Positions 9,501-17,086 of a stretch of 41,063 nucleotides of DNA are shown here, piece by piece. The position numbers were made by a program, and so were the translations under genes. The notes under the pieces were generated by a model that saw only the letters and a program-made list of their open reading frames with translations, was not told the origin of the DNA and made no database searches. Source of the DNA: Bacteroidales bacterium (GTDB lineage Bacteria; Bacteroidota; Bacteroidia; Bacteroidales; PXBB01); contig PXBB01000165.1 in assembly GCA_003565735.1 (NCBI GenBank), forward strand, positions 1 to 41,063, read 5' to 3'. Every line of letters begins with the position of its first letter. Within the stretch, counting starts at the first letter, position 1.

Positions 9501-10639
9501 GAGTTTGAAGCCATAAATTCGTTGATAAGAATATTGTTGTTTTTCACCAATGTCACCTCATCAATATACAATACCGAATTACCCAAAGGTTTTGCACCAT
9601 AGGTGCTAATAAAAACTACGGCGCTGTCGGGTTGCCCCATAAAGCCTGGCAAGTAATATACAGGGATATCAAATTTGGTATATGCAGGCACGGGCTGATA
9701 GTTAGATTTGTGTGCAAAACCTACTACTGTATCGGCCTTATAAATGACAAGATACATTTGCATAGTATCTGCATTTTGCGGTACATATTTGTAGTAGCCT
9801 TTAAAGGATGTGTACCTTTCATCCATTGTGAGAGCACCCTCCCCCCATTTTAAAGTTTCGGAATATAACAGCAGGCCGAGTATGGTATCTGTAGCGCTTA
9901 AGCTGTTTTGTATTCTCGCAGCATAAGAGCCCCCGTAGGCGTCAGTAGTTCTCCTGACAGGATATTGCGGATGGTGATGGGCTGCAAAATTATATGAGAG
10001 CCAGTTTTGAGCCTGATCGTAGGAAGTGGTTTGCCAGTTTTCAAAATCACCGTTGGGGATGGGCAAAGCCGTATTCGTAAAGTGCAAGTCGTCAACTATT
10101 ACAAAGCCACCGTCAATAGTATCCTGAAATGGATTGGGGTGTGTCACAAGGATAATTAATGAGTCGGGTATTTCTGTGGGATGGTTGTATGTAATCCCGA
10201 AACTTAATCTGTGATAGTTAACCGTATCTGGTGTTTGAGGAATCAAGAAAAAATCACTGCATATGTGAACACCATTTTTCTTAAATATCAAATGAATCAA
10301 AGCCATATCGCCGGGGTTTGGGCTATAGCTTTTTAAAAAGCCTACCAGAGAATCGGGGCGGGCAGCAAAAGGCACACCCCCCGTAAAACCAATGCCATCC
10401 ACAAAGCTTCCATGCAAAATAAAAGAAGTAAGCATATTAATGGTGTCGTACTGTAAACGAACACCATAATCGCCCGCATTGCCGGGGCTGTACGGGCTCA
10501 CCCGCCCAAAGCTTTGCCACTCCTCTAATTGATATGTGTCAACAGTAAACCAATTCTCAAAATCTCCGTTATGTAACTGTGTATAAGCAACATTCAATAT
10601 TAAAAAGGATAATAAAAATAAAAGTATTTGCCTTTTCAT
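6509..10639 (-). CDS. Large T9SS-secreted protein with CotH, lamin-tail and chitobiase-like domains
   Basis: A 1376-residue extracellular protein. A signal peptide (about 1-20) is followed by two beta-rich modules; a lamin-tail domain (about 368-490, starting INEFMASNS); a chitobiase/hexosaminidase C-terminal-like segment (about 545, YSLDGSEP); a CotH kinase-like domain (about 700-1050, with RIHGGASRTFNQKSLR and the WLFYDLDFGFG active-site-like motif); an InlB-type repeat segment (about 1070-1150); a second lamin-tail domain (about 1155-1290); and a T9SS type A sorting domain (about 1311-1376, FPNPVSNTLYV to IYFVRI). CotH of Bacillus is a spore-coat protein kinase; the role of CotH domains on Bacteroidota surface proteins is not established. 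The gene is monocistronic with a 95-base leader. Confidence 0.9.
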   Translation of the reverse strand: MKRQILLFLLSFLILNVAYTQLHNGDFENWFTVDTYQLEEWQSFGRVSPYSPGNAGDYGVRLQYDTINMLTSFILHGSFVDGIGFTGGVPFAARPDSLVGFLKSYSPNPGDMALIHLIFKKNGVHICSDFFLIPQTPDTVNYHRLSFGITYNHPTEIPDSLIILVTHPNPFQDTIDGGFVIVDDLHFTNTALPIPNGDFENWQTTSYDQAQNWLSYNFAAHHHPQYPVRRTTDAYGGSYAARIQNSLSATDTILGLLLYSETLKWGEGALTMDERYTSFKGYYKYVPQNADTMQMYLVIYKADTVVGFAHKSNYQPVPAYTKFDIPVYYLPGFMGQPDSAVVFISTYGAKPLGNSVLYIDEVTLVKNNNILINEFMASNSFTVFDFAGDAEDWIELYNAGTSPVLLHNFTLSDDSLELDMWRFPPVVIEPDSFMTVFASGKDLFYPELHTNFRISSSGEPLILSSPTGHICDFLQPVALESDISYGRYPDGSTVFKYFTEPTPGQSNNTSQAFNGISYAKPAFSVHGGFFEAPFNLDININHPTAVVRYSLDGSEPNTGHPVFSQPLLIDSRIGDTNTISMISETSLNFLPPAGEVFKSNVVRAKAFIPDSVTVKTETHTYFVDTGIFSRYNTPVLSLVTDNDNLFDSTIGIYVLGDKYYEWQQQNPNDSLTLWQPANYLGRGGAWERPVHLEYFENTGVTGLRQDAGLRIHGGASRTFNQKSLRVYARDKYGPAPFSYPVFDGHTKRVSDLPLEKFDRLMLRASGNDWGNTFFRDGLMHSLIAHTKLDVMAFQSAVVFLNGEYWGFHNIRERMDKYYISRHYNIDADDVAILEGHGSINTGYISDQMHYYGLHHYVDSNDMSQNTHYEYVKTLMDVENFMLYQAVQIYYRNTDWPGNNIKFWCKRTDNFVPHAPYGKDGRWRWLFYDLDFGFGLIEGLNAHLHNTLEYACEAGNTEWANPDWSTLLFRNLLENINFRNGFINTMADHINTSFLPHRMLDVIDSLKYIYAPGMQEHIDRWRLPLNLGHWNQHINILQYFALNRSASVSQHIMDKWQISGTYNLTLDVNNPQQGSVKINSILIDDNTKGIMGSPYPWTGKYFNDIPVSLQAIPKPGYKFVEWLETGNTQAYITLNLSQAATFTALFEEDTAASYMSLYINEFMASNSTIIADAYGEYDDWIEIYNASADTVDIGGFYITDKLDNPTRHLIPIGFEDTKIPPQGFLLLWADGTPEQDVLHTNFKLSASGEAIGLFAPDGTTVIDTLTFGQQITDISFGRYPDGSPNIILFNIPTPGASNVISSTEDISDTGNTISLFPNPVSNTLYVSQKAEKIKVYNTLGQLVLNDYNKNSIDVSGLPQGIYFVRINKTFVGKIAVQ

Positions 10640-11020
10640 AAAGTCAAATTTTTAATAATAGCTTTAACCTCACATTTATTTATACAAACAAAGACCCTTT
10701 GCCCCTTATAATTGAGTCTGATTTTTTCACCTCCTATTCACAAAAGTAATCAAAAAAGATTTATCAATTTGATTATCAAGTTAAAAACAAAAAGCTTTAG
10801 AAAACATTTTTTTGTTTTCAAGTACTTATACATCAGCACATTGGCTGCTTTCGAAACTCCTGTGCCCGATTAGAATAAAAAACATGTTACTTCCGGTAAA
10901 GAAAACATCAGGCGAAAAACTGGATTTTTTGCATTTAACCATCAAAAAAAAACTACTTTTACAATGCAAAGCAAATAAAAAAAACATTTAATTTAAGCTG
11001 CATCATTCACAAAAACAATA
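10640..11020. other. Divergent promoter region
   Basis: This 381-base spacer separates the minus-strand T9SS gene from the plus-strand ATP-cone gene. It holds the minus-strand promoter at 10741-10748 and its conserved upstream box to about 10806. It also holds a probable plus-strand promoter: TTTTTTG at 10925-10931, 22 bases, then TACTTTTA at 10954-10961, about 60 bases before the ATP-cone ATG. No gene is seen. Confidence 0.5.
10741..10806 (-). promoter_or_regulatory. Promoter and conserved upstream box of the CotH/T9SS gene
   Basis: On the minus strand TACTTTTG (10748-10741) is a perfect -7 box. In place of a -33 TTTG lies TGATAATCAAA, followed after 10 bases by TTTTTTG. About 43 bases match the region before the gene at 39408-40409 with roughly 84 per cent identity by eye. 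Confidence 0.55.
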
Positions 11021-11866
11021 ATGTCAAATACAGATAATATCTTAATCAGAAAAGCATCCGGAGAGACAGAAGCTTTTAATGTCGAAAAGCTAATACAGTC
11101 GCTAAAAAATGCAGGTGCAGAAAGCAAGCTGATCAATGCTATTGTAAATGACATCAATGCGTGGATTTATGATGGCATCACGACCAAAAAAATATACACA
11201 CATGCATTTGGATTGCTTAAACAACAACAACAAAGGTTGGCCGCGCGCTACAAGCTCAAAAAAGCCATCATGGAGCTGGGCCCTACCGGATATCCTTTTG
11301 AATTTTTCATTGGGCAAATTTTTCAGGTTATGGGCTATGAGACAAAAATTGGTCAAACTATTCAAGGCCATTGTGTGACTCATGAAGTTGATGTTATTGC
11401 TGATTTTGATAAGACTCAAGTATTTGTTGAGTGTAAGTTTTTTCACAACCCGGGTAAAACGGCCAATGTAAAAGTTCCGCTTTATATTCGCTCACGGGTA
11501 GATGATATTATCAAAAAACGCAAAGCAGACCCCGCCAACAAGGACATAACTTATGAAGCTTATGTTGTAACCAATACCCGTTTTACTGATGATGCTATAA
11601 AATATGGCAAATGCAGCGGTCTTAAAATGCTTGCATGGAATTATCCCGAAGGTAAAGGGCTCAAACATATTATTGATAAAGAAAGAATATTCCCCGTTAC
11701 GGCTCTTACCAAGCTGACAAAGCCACAAAAAAAACTATTGCTGGAACAAGGCGTGGTTATCTGCAGGCAGATTCTCAGCAACCCCAAACACCTGGATGTG
11801 TTAGACTTAAGCGACAAAAGACACCAAATTATCATGAACGAAATACAAGCATTATGCACCTCATAA
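11021..11866 (+). CDS. ATP-cone domain fused to a PD-(D/E)XK (Mrr-like) nuclease domain
   Basis: A 281-residue cytoplasmic protein. Residues about 6-90 match the ATP-cone, the nucleotide-sensing module of ribonucleotide reductase and NrdR (IRKASGETEAFNVEKLIQSL). A restriction-endonuclease-like fold follows with the expected catalytic residues: Glu94 in FEFFIGQIF, Asp124 in EVDVIA, and Glu137 with Lys139 in VECKF. The C-terminal part (about 225-281) is helical and resembles a small helix-hairpin-helix-like module. The arrangement suggests a nuclease whose action depends on adenine nucleotide levels; this is inference. No methyltransferase is adjacent, so it is not an ordinary restriction system. 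The TspO-like gene follows after 11 bases, probably in one transcript. Confidence 0.82.
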   Translation: MSNTDNILIRKASGETEAFNVEKLIQSLKNAGAESKLINAIVNDINAWIYDGITTKKIYTHAFGLLKQQQQRLAARYKLKKAIMELGPTGYPFEFFIGQIFQVMGYETKIGQTIQGHCVTHEVDVIADFDKTQVFVECKFFHNPGKTANVKVPLYIRSRVDDIIKKRKADPANKDITYEAYVVTNTRFTDDAIKYGKCSGLKMLAWNYPEGKGLKHIIDKERIFPVTALTKLTKPQKKLLLEQGVVICRQILSNPKHLDVLDLSDKRHQIIMNEIQALCTS

Positions 11867-11877
11867 ATAAATAGAAA

Positions 11878-12720
11878 ATGACCAGACTTATTAATAATCA
11901 CAGCATAAAAACTGCGGCCATCACTAAACTCGTATTATTTGCCGCAATGATAGTGGTAAATGCTTTGGCTAACATGCTTCCCTTAAACGGCATGAGTACT
12001 GCTGAGGTTTCAACAAATTACCCCACACTATTTGCCCCCGCCGGCATAACTTTTGCCATATGGGGTGTGATATATTTGCTCCTCTTGTTGATGGTGATTT
12101 ACCAATTGCTTGCAGCATTTGCGGTAAAATACAGGCATGCTTCTTTTAGCACACACTTAAGCATAGCCCTTAGCCTGAACTTTATATTTAATACTTTGTG
12201 GATTTTTACCTGGCACTATGAAATGATTTTCATTTCTATGGTTTTGATTTTGCTGATTTTATTAACACTTTTATACATGTACCTGAAAATCCGAAACAGG
12301 TTTGTTTCAGGTGTTTTTGAGTACATTGTGGTAAAACTGCCCATCATTATTTACCTCGGCTGGATTTCTGTTGCTACCATTGCTAATGTAGCCGCTTTTT
12401 TAGTTGCTGTCAATTTCAGTGGATGGGGTATTTCAGAGTCTGCGTGGACATCATTGCTTATTGCTTTGGCAGCTACATTTGGCATAATTATGATTAAAAG
12501 ACAAAACAACTTTGGATTTTCGCTGGTTTTAATCTGGGCTTTTATTGGCATTATTATCAAAAGAAATGCAGCCCAAATTGTTTATTTTGATATTATTTAT
12601 ACCGTCTGGACTTTTATTGGCATACTCATTTTTATGATGCTTCATAAACTGTGGCATTTGAAAAAAAACAAAAAGCTGAAAAATGTATTGTTTAGTTTAA
12701 AAGAAGAGCGAGAAATTTAG
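11878..12720 (+). CDS. TspO/MBR-like tryptophan-rich membrane protein
   Basis: A 280-residue polytopic membrane protein with about eight hydrophobic segments. The stretch NYPTLFAPAGITFAIWGVIY matches the conserved opening of the long TspO-like proteins of bacteria, comparable to the FxPPxWxFGPVWTxLY region of classical TspO (about 160 residues). It is thus longer than true TspO, and the ligand is unknown. Classical TspO binds porphyrins and sterols. It probably shares a transcript with the ATP-cone nuclease gene 11 bases upstream. The family call is moderate. Confidence 0.65.
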   Translation: MTRLINNHSIKTAAITKLVLFAAMIVVNALANMLPLNGMSTAEVSTNYPTLFAPAGITFAIWGVIYLLLLLMVIYQLLAAFAVKYRHASFSTHLSIALSLNFIFNTLWIFTWHYEMIFISMVLILLILLTLLYMYLKIRNRFVSGVFEYIVVKLPIIIYLGWISVATIANVAAFLVAVNFSGWGISESAWTSLLIALAATFGIIMIKRQNNFGFSLVLIWAFIGIIIKRNAAQIVYFDIIYTVWTFIGILIFMMLHKLWHLKKNKKLKNVLFSLKEEREI

Positions 12721-12796
12721 AGGGCTTTGGACACATAAGCATTCTGACAGCGATAAATACCTGATTTAATTAAAACTTAAATTAACATAAGATATA

Positions 12797-14734
12797 GTGG
12801 CACTACCAATAAACATAGAAGATTTACTACACGGCAATACTATTGAATGGGATAGAATTGAGATAAAAAAAGGTTGGAACCCAGAAAGTATTATTCATTC
12901 TCTTTGTGCTTATGCAAACGATATAAATAATTGGGATGGCGGTTACATTATTATTGGCGTTGAAGAAGAAAATGGAAAAGCAAAGCTACCACCAATAGGT
13001 ATAGATTCAAATCTAATAGATGTGATTCAAAAAAAAATCATTGAACTGTCAAAAAGAATCTCACCTAACTATATTCCTGTGAGCCAGCCTTATATAAAAG
13101 ACGGGAAGAACATTCTAATTGTTTGGGCTCCAGCAGGCGATAATAAGCCATATCAAGCGCCTATAAGTTTAAGTCAAAAAAAATCCGAGAAGGCTTATTA
13201 TATTAAAAGAGGCTCAGAGACGATAAAAGTAAAATCGGGCTCTGATGAAGAAAGAAGACTACTTGAATTAACAGCACGTATCCCGTTTGATGATAGAATA
13301 AACCAATATGCCAAGTTAGATGATTTAAGTCTGCGATTAATACAGGAACATCTTAAGGAAGTGGGTAGTTCCTTGTATGATGAAAGTATAAAAATTCCTT
13401 TTGTTGATTTATGTATGCAAATGAAAATTGCAAAAGGCCCCGTTGAACTTGTTAGACCAACCAATGCAGGATTGCTTTTATTTAATGACAGCCCTGAGAA
13501 ATTTTTTCATGGAGAAAAAATTGAAATTGTTATCCATAAAGGCAAAGTAGGAAAAGAATATAATGAGAAAATTTTTACGGGTTCCATTCAAAAACAGATA
13601 AAAGATGCGCTAAGTTTTATTAGAACAAATATCATACAGGAGCATGTTTTTAAAGTTCCTCAAAAAGAAGAAGCCATTCGTTTTGTTAATTATCCTTTTG
13701 AGGCAATAGAAGAGGCATTGGTTAATGCAGTGTATCACAAAAGCTATGAAAGAGACAATCCTGTTGAAATTCAAGTTTTGCCCGATAGGATAGAGTTTTT
13801 GAGTTTCCCGGGCCCTATGCCGCCAATTGACAAAGAGGCACTTAAAAAAGAAAGAGTGGTTGCAAGAGAATATAGAAACAGAAAATTGGGTGGTTTTTTA
13901 AAGGAGCTAAAACTTACAGAAGGCAGAGCAACAGGGTTTCCGATAATATATGGAAGTCTTGAAGAAAACGGTTCGCCGCCGCCAATTTTTGAAACAGATG
14001 ATAATAATTCTTTTTTTCTGTGTACCTTATTCATTCACCCTCTTACAAACTCTATCTTAGGTCAGGAAAATGAACAAAGAAGAGACACAGATAAGAAACT
14101 GGATTTCAACTCTTTAAAGGATGCTGTTGTTTATCTTAGGTCATTGCCAAATCAGAAACCGACCAAAGATAACTCTCAAATAATAAGCATGTTAAAAAGA
14201 ATTGCTCATTATCTTAGGTCAGTTGATTTCCAAGAAATAACCAAAGAAAAAAAACAAAATATCAACAAAGAAGATTTGTTACTTGTTAAAGTCTTAATAT
14301 TCTGTGAAACTCCAAAAACCAGATATGAAATATTGAAGCATATTGATAAATATAACAATAGTCGTAATTTCAATAATTATATAAAACCTGTTACAGAAAT
14401 TGGGTGGTTGCAATATACAATTGTAAATAAACCAACCAGTAAAAATCAAAAATATAAAACTGCCGATTTTGTTACTAAATGGATTGAAGCATCTTCAAAA
14501 AATAATATTATTGAGAGAACTCCCATTGCGTCATCAAATATTGCCTCTGTGGGTTATGATGCAGCAAGCCAAACGCTTGAAATAGAATTTCATCATGGCG
14601 CCATTTTTCAGTATTTTGATGTTCCTAAAGAAATCTATGATGGGCTTATGAATGCATCCTCTCATGGGAAATATTTTAAACATGAAATCAAAAATAATTA
14701 TGGGCACAGACGACTTATCAATCCCAACTTATAA
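12797..14734 (+). CDS. Schlafen/AlbA_2-domain ATPase-like protein with C-terminal KTSC domain
   Basis: 645 residues starting with GTG at 12797; no in-frame ATG lies near. Residues about 1-150 form an AlbA_2 (Schlafen-type, COG2865) domain (IEIKKGW, then GGYIIIGVEE). A GHKL ATPase-like segment follows at about 290-400, with an N-box-like EALVNAVYHKSY near 305-316 and GRATGFPIIYGS. A linker with lysine-rich and low-complexity helices comes next. Residues about 575-640 form a KTSC domain (IASVGYD...LEIEFHHGAIFQYFDVP), which in other proteins caps nucleic-acid-related enzymes. COG2865 proteins are often labelled transcriptional regulators or helicases, and many sit in defence or accessory loci. 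The gene overlaps the next by 35 bases. It looks A+T-rich against its neighbours, consistent with transfer. The role is unproven. Confidence 0.85.
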   Translation: MALPINIEDLLHGNTIEWDRIEIKKGWNPESIIHSLCAYANDINNWDGGYIIIGVEEENGKAKLPPIGIDSNLIDVIQKKIIELSKRISPNYIPVSQPYIKDGKNILIVWAPAGDNKPYQAPISLSQKKSEKAYYIKRGSETIKVKSGSDEERRLLELTARIPFDDRINQYAKLDDLSLRLIQEHLKEVGSSLYDESIKIPFVDLCMQMKIAKGPVELVRPTNAGLLLFNDSPEKFFHGEKIEIVIHKGKVGKEYNEKIFTGSIQKQIKDALSFIRTNIIQEHVFKVPQKEEAIRFVNYPFEAIEEALVNAVYHKSYERDNPVEIQVLPDRIEFLSFPGPMPPIDKEALKKERVVAREYRNRKLGGFLKELKLTEGRATGFPIIYGSLEENGSPPPIFETDDNNSFFLCTLFIHPLTNSILGQENEQRRDTDKKLDFNSLKDAVVYLRSLPNQKPTKDNSQIISMLKRIAHYLRSVDFQEITKEKKQNINKEDLLLVKVLIFCETPKTRYEILKHIDKYNNSRNFNNYIKPVTEIGWLQYTIVNKPTSKNQKYKTADFVTKWIEASSKNNIIERTPIASSNIASVGYDAASQTLEIEFHHGAIFQYFDVPKEIYDGLMNASSHGKYFKHEIKNNYGHRRLINPNL

Positions 14735-15014
14735 TGGAATTTTAATAGAAGCGGAAAAATTCAATCATGATTTGACTTTGCAATTTGGCGTATTGGCTTC
14801 TGAATGCAAAGACGATGATGATTATTTAAGCAAAGCTGAAGCTCTGATAAAAGAATGGCTTATGGATGATGATTTTGATGAACTTACTTATAAGATTTTT
14901 TTCGGTGAGTATGTGGACCATGAAGAGTTCAAGGACACATTAAATAAAATTCTAACCAATATCAGTGAAATTAGAAAAACTCCCATGAATCAAAGAGAAT
15001 TTGAAGACTGGTAA
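14700..15014 (+). CDS. Small acidic protein overlapping the AlbA_2/KTSC gene
   Basis: I do not recognise this 104-residue protein. It is strongly acidic, with clusters such as CKDDDDYLSK and MDDDFDEL, mostly predicted helical, with no signal peptide or membrane segment. I chose the start ATG 14700 (MGTDDLSIP), which overlaps the upstream gene by 35 bases in another frame; ATG 14652 is possible but would make a longer overlap with an unconvincing N-terminus. The overlap implies translational coupling to the ATPase. It may be a partner, inhibitor or antitoxin-like protein of that ATPase; this is inference from size, charge and position only. Confidence 0.75.
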   Translation: MGTDDLSIPTYNGILIEAEKFNHDLTLQFGVLASECKDDDDYLSKAEALIKEWLMDDDFDELTYKIFFGEYVDHEEFKDTLNKILTNISEIRKTPMNQREFEDW

Positions 15015-15786
15015 AAAAATAACACATGGTATCTACTCCTGAAAACATACGGCTATTCCGTTCCATCTCCTGACTTCCGGATAATAAATTTTGACTGACC
15101 TGTAACACTTTGACAGATAGCCATATATGATCATGCTTGGTTGTAAATGGGTGTCCCGTCAAAATCGCAGTAACTCCGCAGTAAAAATTTGCATATAGTT
15201 TTAAGTTCTAAAACACTGTATATAAGTAAATTGATAAGCTCAATTCTTTTTATTATATGCTTTTTGATAAAAAAATATGTCTTTTGATAAAGCGGGTGTC
15301 CTATCCGGAAAACAGGAGATAATTTAGTGTTTAATAAAAGTCCAAGCACTTTGCTAAAACCCCACCTGCCAAGGCTTCATCCTAAGCTTTACCAAAGAGC
15401 TTGCAATTAAATTTAAACTTCTTTCCCATCCCGAAAGAAAAATTAAATAAAACACGCCAACTCACAGGCAACACTCAAAAACAAAGGATAATGCTATTTG
15501 AAAGTTTAGCAAGTTTAATATCCCAATCACAGTTTGAAAACCAAGTGGCATGACGACCGGCCTGTGCTAAAACCGCTGCCAGGTAGCTAAACCGATCTGA
15601 AATCAGATTCATACATCTTTTTTTTGTGAGCTATACAGGCTAAGCAAAGAATAGTTAACAACGAACACTGAATAAACACGAAATATGCAAATGCCTTTTT
15701 CTTATACGTGCCTTCAATTTGGGAAATATATTTCTTTTATTTATTCTAAATAAAATTGTTTTTTGTACTTTTGGGAAAAAAATATC
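15015..15786. other. 772-base gene-free region behind the accessory pair
   Basis: No convincing coding sequence is seen on either strand. It holds an 8-base direct repeat CGCAGTAA separated by three bases near 15165-15185, two copies of GGGTGTCC (near 15149 and 15294), a repeated CTTTTGATAAA-like motif near 15260-15290, and a small palindrome ATCTGA-AA-TCAGAT near 15595. The right end carries the hemerythrin promoter. The composition and the lack of genes suggest decayed accessory DNA. Confidence 0.45.
15766..15773 (+). promoter_or_regulatory. -7 box of the hemerythrin-LuxR operon
   Basis: TACTTTTG is a perfect -7 box, 13 bases before the ATG at 15787, giving a very short leader. TTTTTTG lies directly upstream, as in several other promoters of this window. 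No clear -33 TTTG is seen. Confidence 0.65.
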
Positions 15787-16503
15787 ATGTATTTAATCAG
15801 AAAAACTTATATAAAACCTGAGATGAAGCTATCATCTTTATTTTTCGAAAACCCTCATTTACTTGTGATGATGGAGCATTTCGGATTAGACTTTATTGTT
15901 TACGACAAAACAATAGCTCAGGTTTGTAAGGCGCATAATCTCAGCACAGAACTTTTTCTCACTTTTGCAAATCTTTACAATGGTTTTACAATTGATAAGA
16001 AATTAAACTTAAAAGCTCATGACGTAAAAACTATTGTCACTTTTTTGAAAAACAGCCACACTTACTACAAGGAAGAGAAGTATCCCGAAATACAAAAGCT
16101 TATTAACTTGCTTGCCGAAAATAATAAAAGTGTTTCTGTTAAGCTTATCGTAAATTTTTTTGAAGAATATTTTAAAGAGGTTCTCGAACACCTGGATTAT
16201 GAGGATAAAACAGCTTTCCCTTATTTTTTAGATTTGGCAGATAATCATTCCGGCTCCGGAAACAAGCATGAATATTCGGTTAAAACATACAGTATGCATC
16301 ATTCGGATATAGAAACAAAAATTAAAGAGCTTAAAAATCTTTTGCTGGTTCATATTCCTCTTGAAGATAATCGCAATTTAAGGCGTAAACTGATTTTAAA
16401 GCTTTTTGACCTGGAATATGATTTGCAAATACACTACCATATTGAAGAGGCCGTGCTGATTCCTATTATTTCCGAAATTGAAGACAACAATGCAAGATTG
16501 TAA
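15787..16503 (+). CDS. Hemerythrin-domain di-iron protein (RIC/YtfE/ScdA-like)
   Basis: A 238-residue cytoplasmic protein. The N-terminal 70 residues resemble the DUF542/ScdA_N domain. The rest is a four-helix hemerythrin domain with a plausible six-ligand di-iron site: His91, His135 with Glu139 (HLDYE), His171 or His172 (MHHSD), and His216 with Glu220 (HYHIE). In YtfE/RIC this fold helps repair iron-sulfur clusters after nitric oxide or oxidative damage; an oxygen or NO sensor is the alternative. ATG 15787 is preferred over an upstream in-frame start (15763), which lies before the -7 box. It overlaps the LuxR-type gene by 14 bases, so the two are translationally coupled. Confidence 0.88.
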   Translation: MYLIRKTYIKPEMKLSSLFFENPHLLVMMEHFGLDFIVYDKTIAQVCKAHNLSTELFLTFANLYNGFTIDKKLNLKAHDVKTIVTFLKNSHTYYKEEKYPEIQKLINLLAENNKSVSVKLIVNFFEEYFKEVLEHLDYEDKTAFPYFLDLADNHSGSGNKHEYSVKTYSMHHSDIETKIKELKNLLLVHIPLEDNRNLRRKLILKLFDLEYDLQIHYHIEEAVLIPIISEIEDNNARL

Positions 16504-17086
16504 TTTATATATTGGCATCCTAGAACCTTCGCCTATAATTTATGAAGGTCTATCAAATATTTTACTCAAAGAAGACATCCATTTAAACGTTTTAAAATTT
16601 GACTCTTTATATGAATTAAGCACCTACAAAAATAAATGCTGTTTTAAAATCATTATTTTAAACCCCGGCATCGTCATGGCCAATAAAAAAATGTTTAACG
16701 CATTGAAGAAAGAGATGCACGACACTGTGTGGGTAGGGATGGTTTACAGCCTTTACGACAGCAACCTTTTGAGCGCATTTGATAGTATTATTCAAATAAC
16801 AAATAATACCAAAGAAATAACCCATATCGTACAAAAAATAAAAACTGATGATTGTCAATGTGGCGGAAATGCACATAATGAAATGCTTAGCGAAAGGGAA
16901 AAAGACATTCTCGTTGAGCTTGTGAACGGCCTTTCTAATAAAGAAATAGCCGATAAGCTTAACATCAGCATACATACGGTTATCAGCCACCGCAAAAACA
17001 TCACTCAAAAAACATCTATAAAAAGTTTGGCAGGCCTTACCATTTATGCCATAACAAACGATATTGTTTCAATTGACAAATTATAG
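16490..17086 (+). CDS. LuxR-family regulator with degenerate receiver domain
   Basis: 198 residues. The N-terminal half has a receiver-like fold, but the acidic pocket is lost (LEPSP) and the phospho-acceptor aspartate position is Asn58 (IIILNPG), so phosphorylation is unlikely. The C-terminal half is a LuxR/GerE helix-turn-helix (about 132-187, LSEREKDILVELVNGLSNKEIA). A CQCGGN motif lies just before it, with cysteines that could bind metal or react with oxidants. ATG 16490 is chosen over the in-frame TTG 16478. The overlap with the hemerythrin gene suggests that the regulator responds through, or controls, that protein. Confidence 0.87.
   Translation: MQDCNLYIGILEPSPIIYEGLSNILLKEDIHLNVLKFDSLYELSTYKNKCCFKIIILNPGIVMANKKMFNALKKEMHDTVWVGMVYSLYDSNLLSAFDSIIQITNNTKEITHIVQKIKTDDCQCGGNAHNEMLSEREKDILVELVNGLSNKEIADKLNISIHTVISHRKNITQKTSIKSLAGLTIYAITNDIVSIDKL

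Follow-up and report, generated by a model that had tools for sequence, protein, structure and literature searches.

A probable junction between an intact Schlafen-type effector gene and an orphaned accessory gene of a lost AEP-helicase in a Bacteroidales genome

Two overlapping genes on a contig of a Bacteroidales bacterium raise the question of whether they form one coupled system. An earlier sequence-only reading had taken them for a candidate accessory or defence module, in which a long AlbA_2/GHKL/KTSC protein would be partnered by a small, very acidic protein encoded by the next gene. We examined this locus in the window, by which we mean the whole stretch of 41,063 nucleotides that was analysed. 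The findings favour a different account, according to which the window is probably a junction between an intact Schlafen-type effector gene and an orphaned accessory gene whose AEP-helicase has been lost. A guessed two-gene system is thereby replaced by a testable history. The features concerned are as follows.

12797..14734, + strand: long Schlafen-type gene (open frame, Pfam domains, start in agreement with homologues)
12845..13231, + strand: AlbA_2/Schlafen domain, residues 17-145 of the long protein (Pfam SLFN_AlbA_2, PF04326, 2.2e-14, above cut-off)
13757..14017, + strand: GHKL-type ATPase domain HATPase_c_4, residues 321-407 (Pfam 6.4e-11, above cut-off)
14333..14458, + strand: weak winged-helix (Fic-like_C) match, residues 513-554 (Pfam 1.9e-5, below curated cut-off)
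14531..14701, + strand: KTSC domain, residues 579-635 (Pfam 3.5e-26; second search 1.9e-27)
14700..14734, + strand: overlap of the long and small frames, 35 bases (direct sequence reading)
14700..15014, + strand: small acidic gene, 104 amino acids, five-helix, of an undescribed family (homologues; model pLDDT 95.6)
15026..15073, + strand: 5' stump of an AEP-TOTE primase-helicase gene, MVSTPENIRLFRSIS plus stop (N-terminus score; DNA homology to genome G002)
15327..15425, + strand: imperfect hairpin repeat of about 100 bases (copies flank the restriction-modification (R-M)/small gene/helicase module in relatives)

The long gene begins with GTG and encodes 645 amino acids with zero internal stops, as read from the open reading frames of the window. 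The GTG start fits the N-termini of homologues in the alignment (MALPINIEDLL compared to MSLPINIADLL and MKLPVNIEDIL). The three domain calls made previously from the sequence were all borne out by Pfam, and a winged helix that had not been listed was found between the ATPase and KTSC domains. This winged helix was above cut-off in homologue L005. In an alignment of four homologues, residues E17, E22, K24 and E57 of the AlbA_2 domain and E305, E306 and N310 of the N-box region of the ATPase domain were invariant, and therefore nothing in the sequence suggests an inactive relic. By their spacing, E17, E22 and E57 are candidates for the Schlafen catalytic positions. The structure model of the long protein, built from four sequences, was poor and was left out of the argument. 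Matches to pAgo-related PADLOC profiles were also obtained at residues 30-378 and 157-361 (E about 1e-15); they reflect common AlbA_2-type N-terminal parts and no Argonaute.

Schlafen RNases carrying a minimal histidine-kinase-type ATPase and a wHTH have been reported as auxiliary defence effectors of BREX-type systems (PMC12839542). The AlbA_2 domain, the histidine-kinase-type (GHKL) ATPase and the winged helix, the last weak here and stronger in L005, are all present in the long protein, but it has an extra KTSC tail, and no BREX genes were seen around its gene. The long gene is thus an intact bacterial Schlafen-type gene, probably with an anti-phage role, and its product, as judged from domain content, most likely a known type of defence effector with a new KTSC tail. 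By analogy with bacterial Schlafens, such an effector, with its RNase-fold AlbA_2 domain, would stay inactive until infection is sensed by the ATPase/wHTH part; once activated it would cut RNA, probably tRNA, halting phage growth. The KTSC domain added at the C-terminus may serve assembly or substrate contact.

The three best-matching relatives of the long protein from the same order were 38-53% identical to it. All three contained AlbA_2 and the ATPase, two contained the winged helix, and KTSC was absent from each of them. In plasmid homologues the alignment ended at about residue 553, and one of these plasmid genes sits within a helicase/methylase operon. Downstream of a Parabacteroides distasonis homologue come an SNF2/PLD helicase and an Eco57I-type methylase. 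The best PDB match of the KTSC domain was the C-terminus of the HerA protein 8wiv, and KTSC is also C-terminal on HerA-type frames of other Bacteroidota (L098 460-1677 and L122 1270-2802). These KTSC-tailed HerA proteins resemble the long protein in bearing a C-terminal KTSC on an ATPase-type protein, but the long protein carries AlbA_2/GHKL and not HerA. KTSC-tailed Schlafens are uncommon, because the KTSC matches listed for 396 genomes of the phylum included only three frames of about 400 codons or more, namely the window's Schlafen-type gene and the HerA-type frames of L098 and L122.

The small gene encodes 104 residues, of which 26 are D or E and 10 are K or R (net charge -16), which agrees with its earlier description as very acidic. 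No Pfam family was above cut-off, and assignment to a known family was rejected, the matches to DUF6558 being weak. About 30 homologous loci were found in Bacteroidota. Scanning of public genomes turned up 15 loci; in searches of whole genomes, the protein was matched in 7 of 396 from the phylum and 13 of 393 from the order, the window's own genome being counted in both figures. The nearest relative, at 70% identity, was in G002, one of two same-family genomes searched for the small protein. Conserved residues are spread along the length of the family, and the family-invariant ones are kept in the window. A five-helix fold was predicted with confidence; the model had no significant fold match in the PDB or among viral folds, and searches of phages, plasmids and viral contigs, at the sensitivity used, gave no match to the protein. 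These findings show that the small frame represents a genuine, conserved protein family, as yet uncharacterised and helical, whose closest clade is associated with an AEP-TOTE helicase. Synonymous-site conservation was seen at codons 3, 4, 6 and 7 (ACA GAC GAY TTA TCA; window 14700-14720) in the first 22 loci. In loci found later ACA and TTA were kept in nearly all and GAC (codon 4) was not, and a hidden overlapping gene as the cause was rejected since no upstream frame was present and codon 4 was unsupported in the later loci.

The start codon of the small gene falls within the final codons of the KTSC frame, and the resulting overlap provides a translational linkage that speaks against regarding the small gene as an orphan. 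It was on this overlap that the proposal of coupled partners was based, in which the small acidic protein would bind and restrain (or activate) the Schlafen-type RNase. The distribution of the two genes does not agree with such a pairing. The long protein was matched in 34 of 60 related genomes compared to 2 of 60 for the small protein, so that the ATPase occurs widely without it, and the small gene recurs without the ATPase and, within the closest clade, in company with an AEP-TOTE helicase. No other locus examined held the pair, and a recurrent Schlafen-small gene system was therefore not upheld as a general rule; the window's genome is an 84%-complete assembly, and very near relatives may be missing from the searches. 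In G002 the Schlafen-type gene and the small gene lie on different contigs. KTSC as the partner of the small protein was likewise rejected, since no KTSC gene adjoins the small gene elsewhere. Directly upstream of the G002 small gene there is a short Schlafen-like trace (score 49; none of 500 shuffles scored as high). The trace peptide, LQKQRVVARDYRKLQI (L024 8777-8824), resembles the ATPase part of the Schlafen protein. Because of this trace, an older adjacency of Schlafen and small genes is possible. Owing to the overlap and the G002 trace, the coupled-pair explanation keeps some probability, and both genes are intact although the helicase has been lost; with the pair absent from every other locus and the closest small-gene clade associated with AEP-TOTE, we consider it unlikely.

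The gene neighbourhoods of the closest relatives point instead to the helicase. Six distinct closest small-gene loci were compared: L024 (the same locus as L030), L028, L029, L031, L032 and L033. In five of these an AEP-TOTE primase-helicase gene begins 9-87 bases 3' of the small-gene stop, the one without it being L028, and the AEP-TOTE domain PF22548 was matched in the adjoining helicase at 3.3e-87. The closest relatives also often adjoin R-M genes. In L029 the genes run XRE regulator, AccI endonuclease, methylase, small gene and AEP-helicase; in G002 they run XRE, methylase, a 243-aa frame, small gene and an AEP-helicase interrupted by a frame break. Members further removed are flanked by other genes, namely a YhcG nuclease or a C5 methylase upstream, or DUF3024, UPF0158, DUF6398 or shikimate-kinase-like genes downstream. 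Neither KTSC nor Schlafen genes were found to adjoin other small genes in the loci inspected, where gene contexts were read partly from short flanks. A general role as AEP-TOTE partner was rejected. None of 29 AEP-TOTE loci (in 28 of 396 phylum genomes) had a small gene nearby, and because of this the link between small gene and helicase is confined to one clade. Within that clade, the small acidic protein would be an accessory of the AEP-TOTE primase-helicase, often beside R-M genes. The defence-island character proposed for the locus is in keeping with these R-M neighbours and with the reported effector role of the Schlafen type.

The same neighbours, which include the AccI R-M genes, other methylases and the YhcG nuclease, together with the net charge of the window's small protein, could also indicate that these proteins have a general regulatory or protective role in R-M and nuclease islands, whatever gene lies beside them; as DNA mimics, for instance, they could keep host DNA shielded or hold neighbouring nucleases in check. 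However, family members differ in net charge (from -3 to -18), many of them lack a neighbouring nuclease, and the fold of the small protein matches no known mimic. The inhibitor or DNA-mimic idea thus gained no specific support, and a general regulatory function appears distinctly improbable.

That the small gene was once followed by a helicase in the window itself is suggested by the DNA downstream of it. The roughly 770 bases 3' of the small gene, described earlier as decayed, indeed hold no intact gene; they do, however, hold the helicase stump and the hairpin repeat. The stump begins 11 bases after the small gene, a spacing as in relatives, and about 14 codons resemble the helicase N-terminus. 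Its score against helicase N-termini was 23.2, a value reached by 1 of 100,000 shuffles; of the window's 2,363 start-codon peptides, the runner-up scored 11.0. DNA homology to G002 (14692-15047) sets in 8 bases ahead of the small ATG and ends 22 bases inside the helicase gene, and thus spans the small gene, the spacer and the helicase start. Neither the window nor the assembly yielded the rest of the helicase gene, and no further remnants were found in 15070-15760. Since the first 14 codons survive from 15026, the supposedly decayed DNA is in part, by sequence resemblance, the stump of the small gene's helicase partner. The AEP-TOTE (PF22548) primase-helicase belongs to the TOTE conflict systems (PMC12458937). 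The usual neighbour of the closest small-gene clade has AEP-TOTE and helicase domains, and its start survives in the window, but the helicase body is lost there. In the L024 and L029 modules, no annotated gene was recognised as a TPR, OB/cold-shock or TBP component.

In L033 (6309-7668) the AEP-helicase 3' of the small gene ends after 124 codons, and a DUF6602 gene comes next; this locus is thus a second case of helicase loss at the same point 3' of the small gene. Together with the frame break in G002, the L033 truncation means that related loci are decaying too. This, the loss of the AEP gene and the start of the G002 DNA homology only 8 bases before the small ATG are what would be expected if both frames were leftovers of a decaying island, their overlap a recombination accident with no selected function now. 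Such complete decay is very unlikely, since both frames are open over their full length and the small protein retains its family-invariant residues. Under the favoured junction account, the helicase body would have been lost at the window, leaving the first 14 codons and the flanking hairpin repeat, and the small gene would be an orphan, probably translated from the Schlafen transcript, and no dedicated partner of the Schlafen.

Copies of the hairpin repeat were located in the window (15327-15425), L024 (4300-4400 and 12160-12258), L187 (9385-9482 and 9960-10060) and L029 (1225-1321). In G002 one copy starts one base 3' of the helicase stop codon, a second immediately precedes the XRE gene, and two further copies are found upstream of a type I R-M operon. 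In L029 a copy precedes the XRE gene (E 5e-4); a second one, 4 bases 3' of the helicase stop, is doubtful (E about 1). The first L029 copy retains the stem though its sequence differs; the pair counts are suggestive, five to seven copies being too few to settle the nature of the repeat. No left-end copy was found within 10500-15800 of the window. Like integron attC sites, the repeat is an imperfect hairpin whose two stems are separated by a small internal loop, and in two cases it follows immediately on the end of a gene. Unlike attC sites, the handful of copies inspected lack the RYYYAAC/GTTRRRY core boxes, and no integrase was seen with the repeat, so that neither of the two attC hallmarks (boxes and integrase) was found. 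A more far-reaching reading, which we put forward tentatively and regard as rather doubtful, is that the small proteins form a new family of AEP-TOTE helicase accessories carried with R-M genes in cassettes bounded by attC-like hairpins, the window being such a cassette that has lost its helicase and now has a KTSC-tailed Schlafen effector as neighbour. If this were true, Bacteroidota would possess a structured-repeat system that shuffles defence modules, and hairpins that bound modules would reveal how this phylum exchanges its R-M and helicase modules.

The pair had also been described as A+T-rich, as expected for an island. The G+C content was indeed 0.31-0.35 over 12.5-15 kb compared to roughly 0.38-0.40 in much of the window, but the A+T-rich stretch is not confined to the pair. 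Because the DNA is likewise A+T-rich up to about 17 kb, composition alone fails to mark the pair as an island. An empty-site test with the flanking genes was abandoned, the relatives being too diverged. Two genes upstream of the pair, the gene at 11021-11866 had ATP-cone (below cut-off) and Mrr-type endonuclease matches, and on these it is possibly another defence or repair gene. Just downstream, at 15763-17086, a gene for a hemerythrin-like protein overlaps a gene for a LuxR-type regulator.
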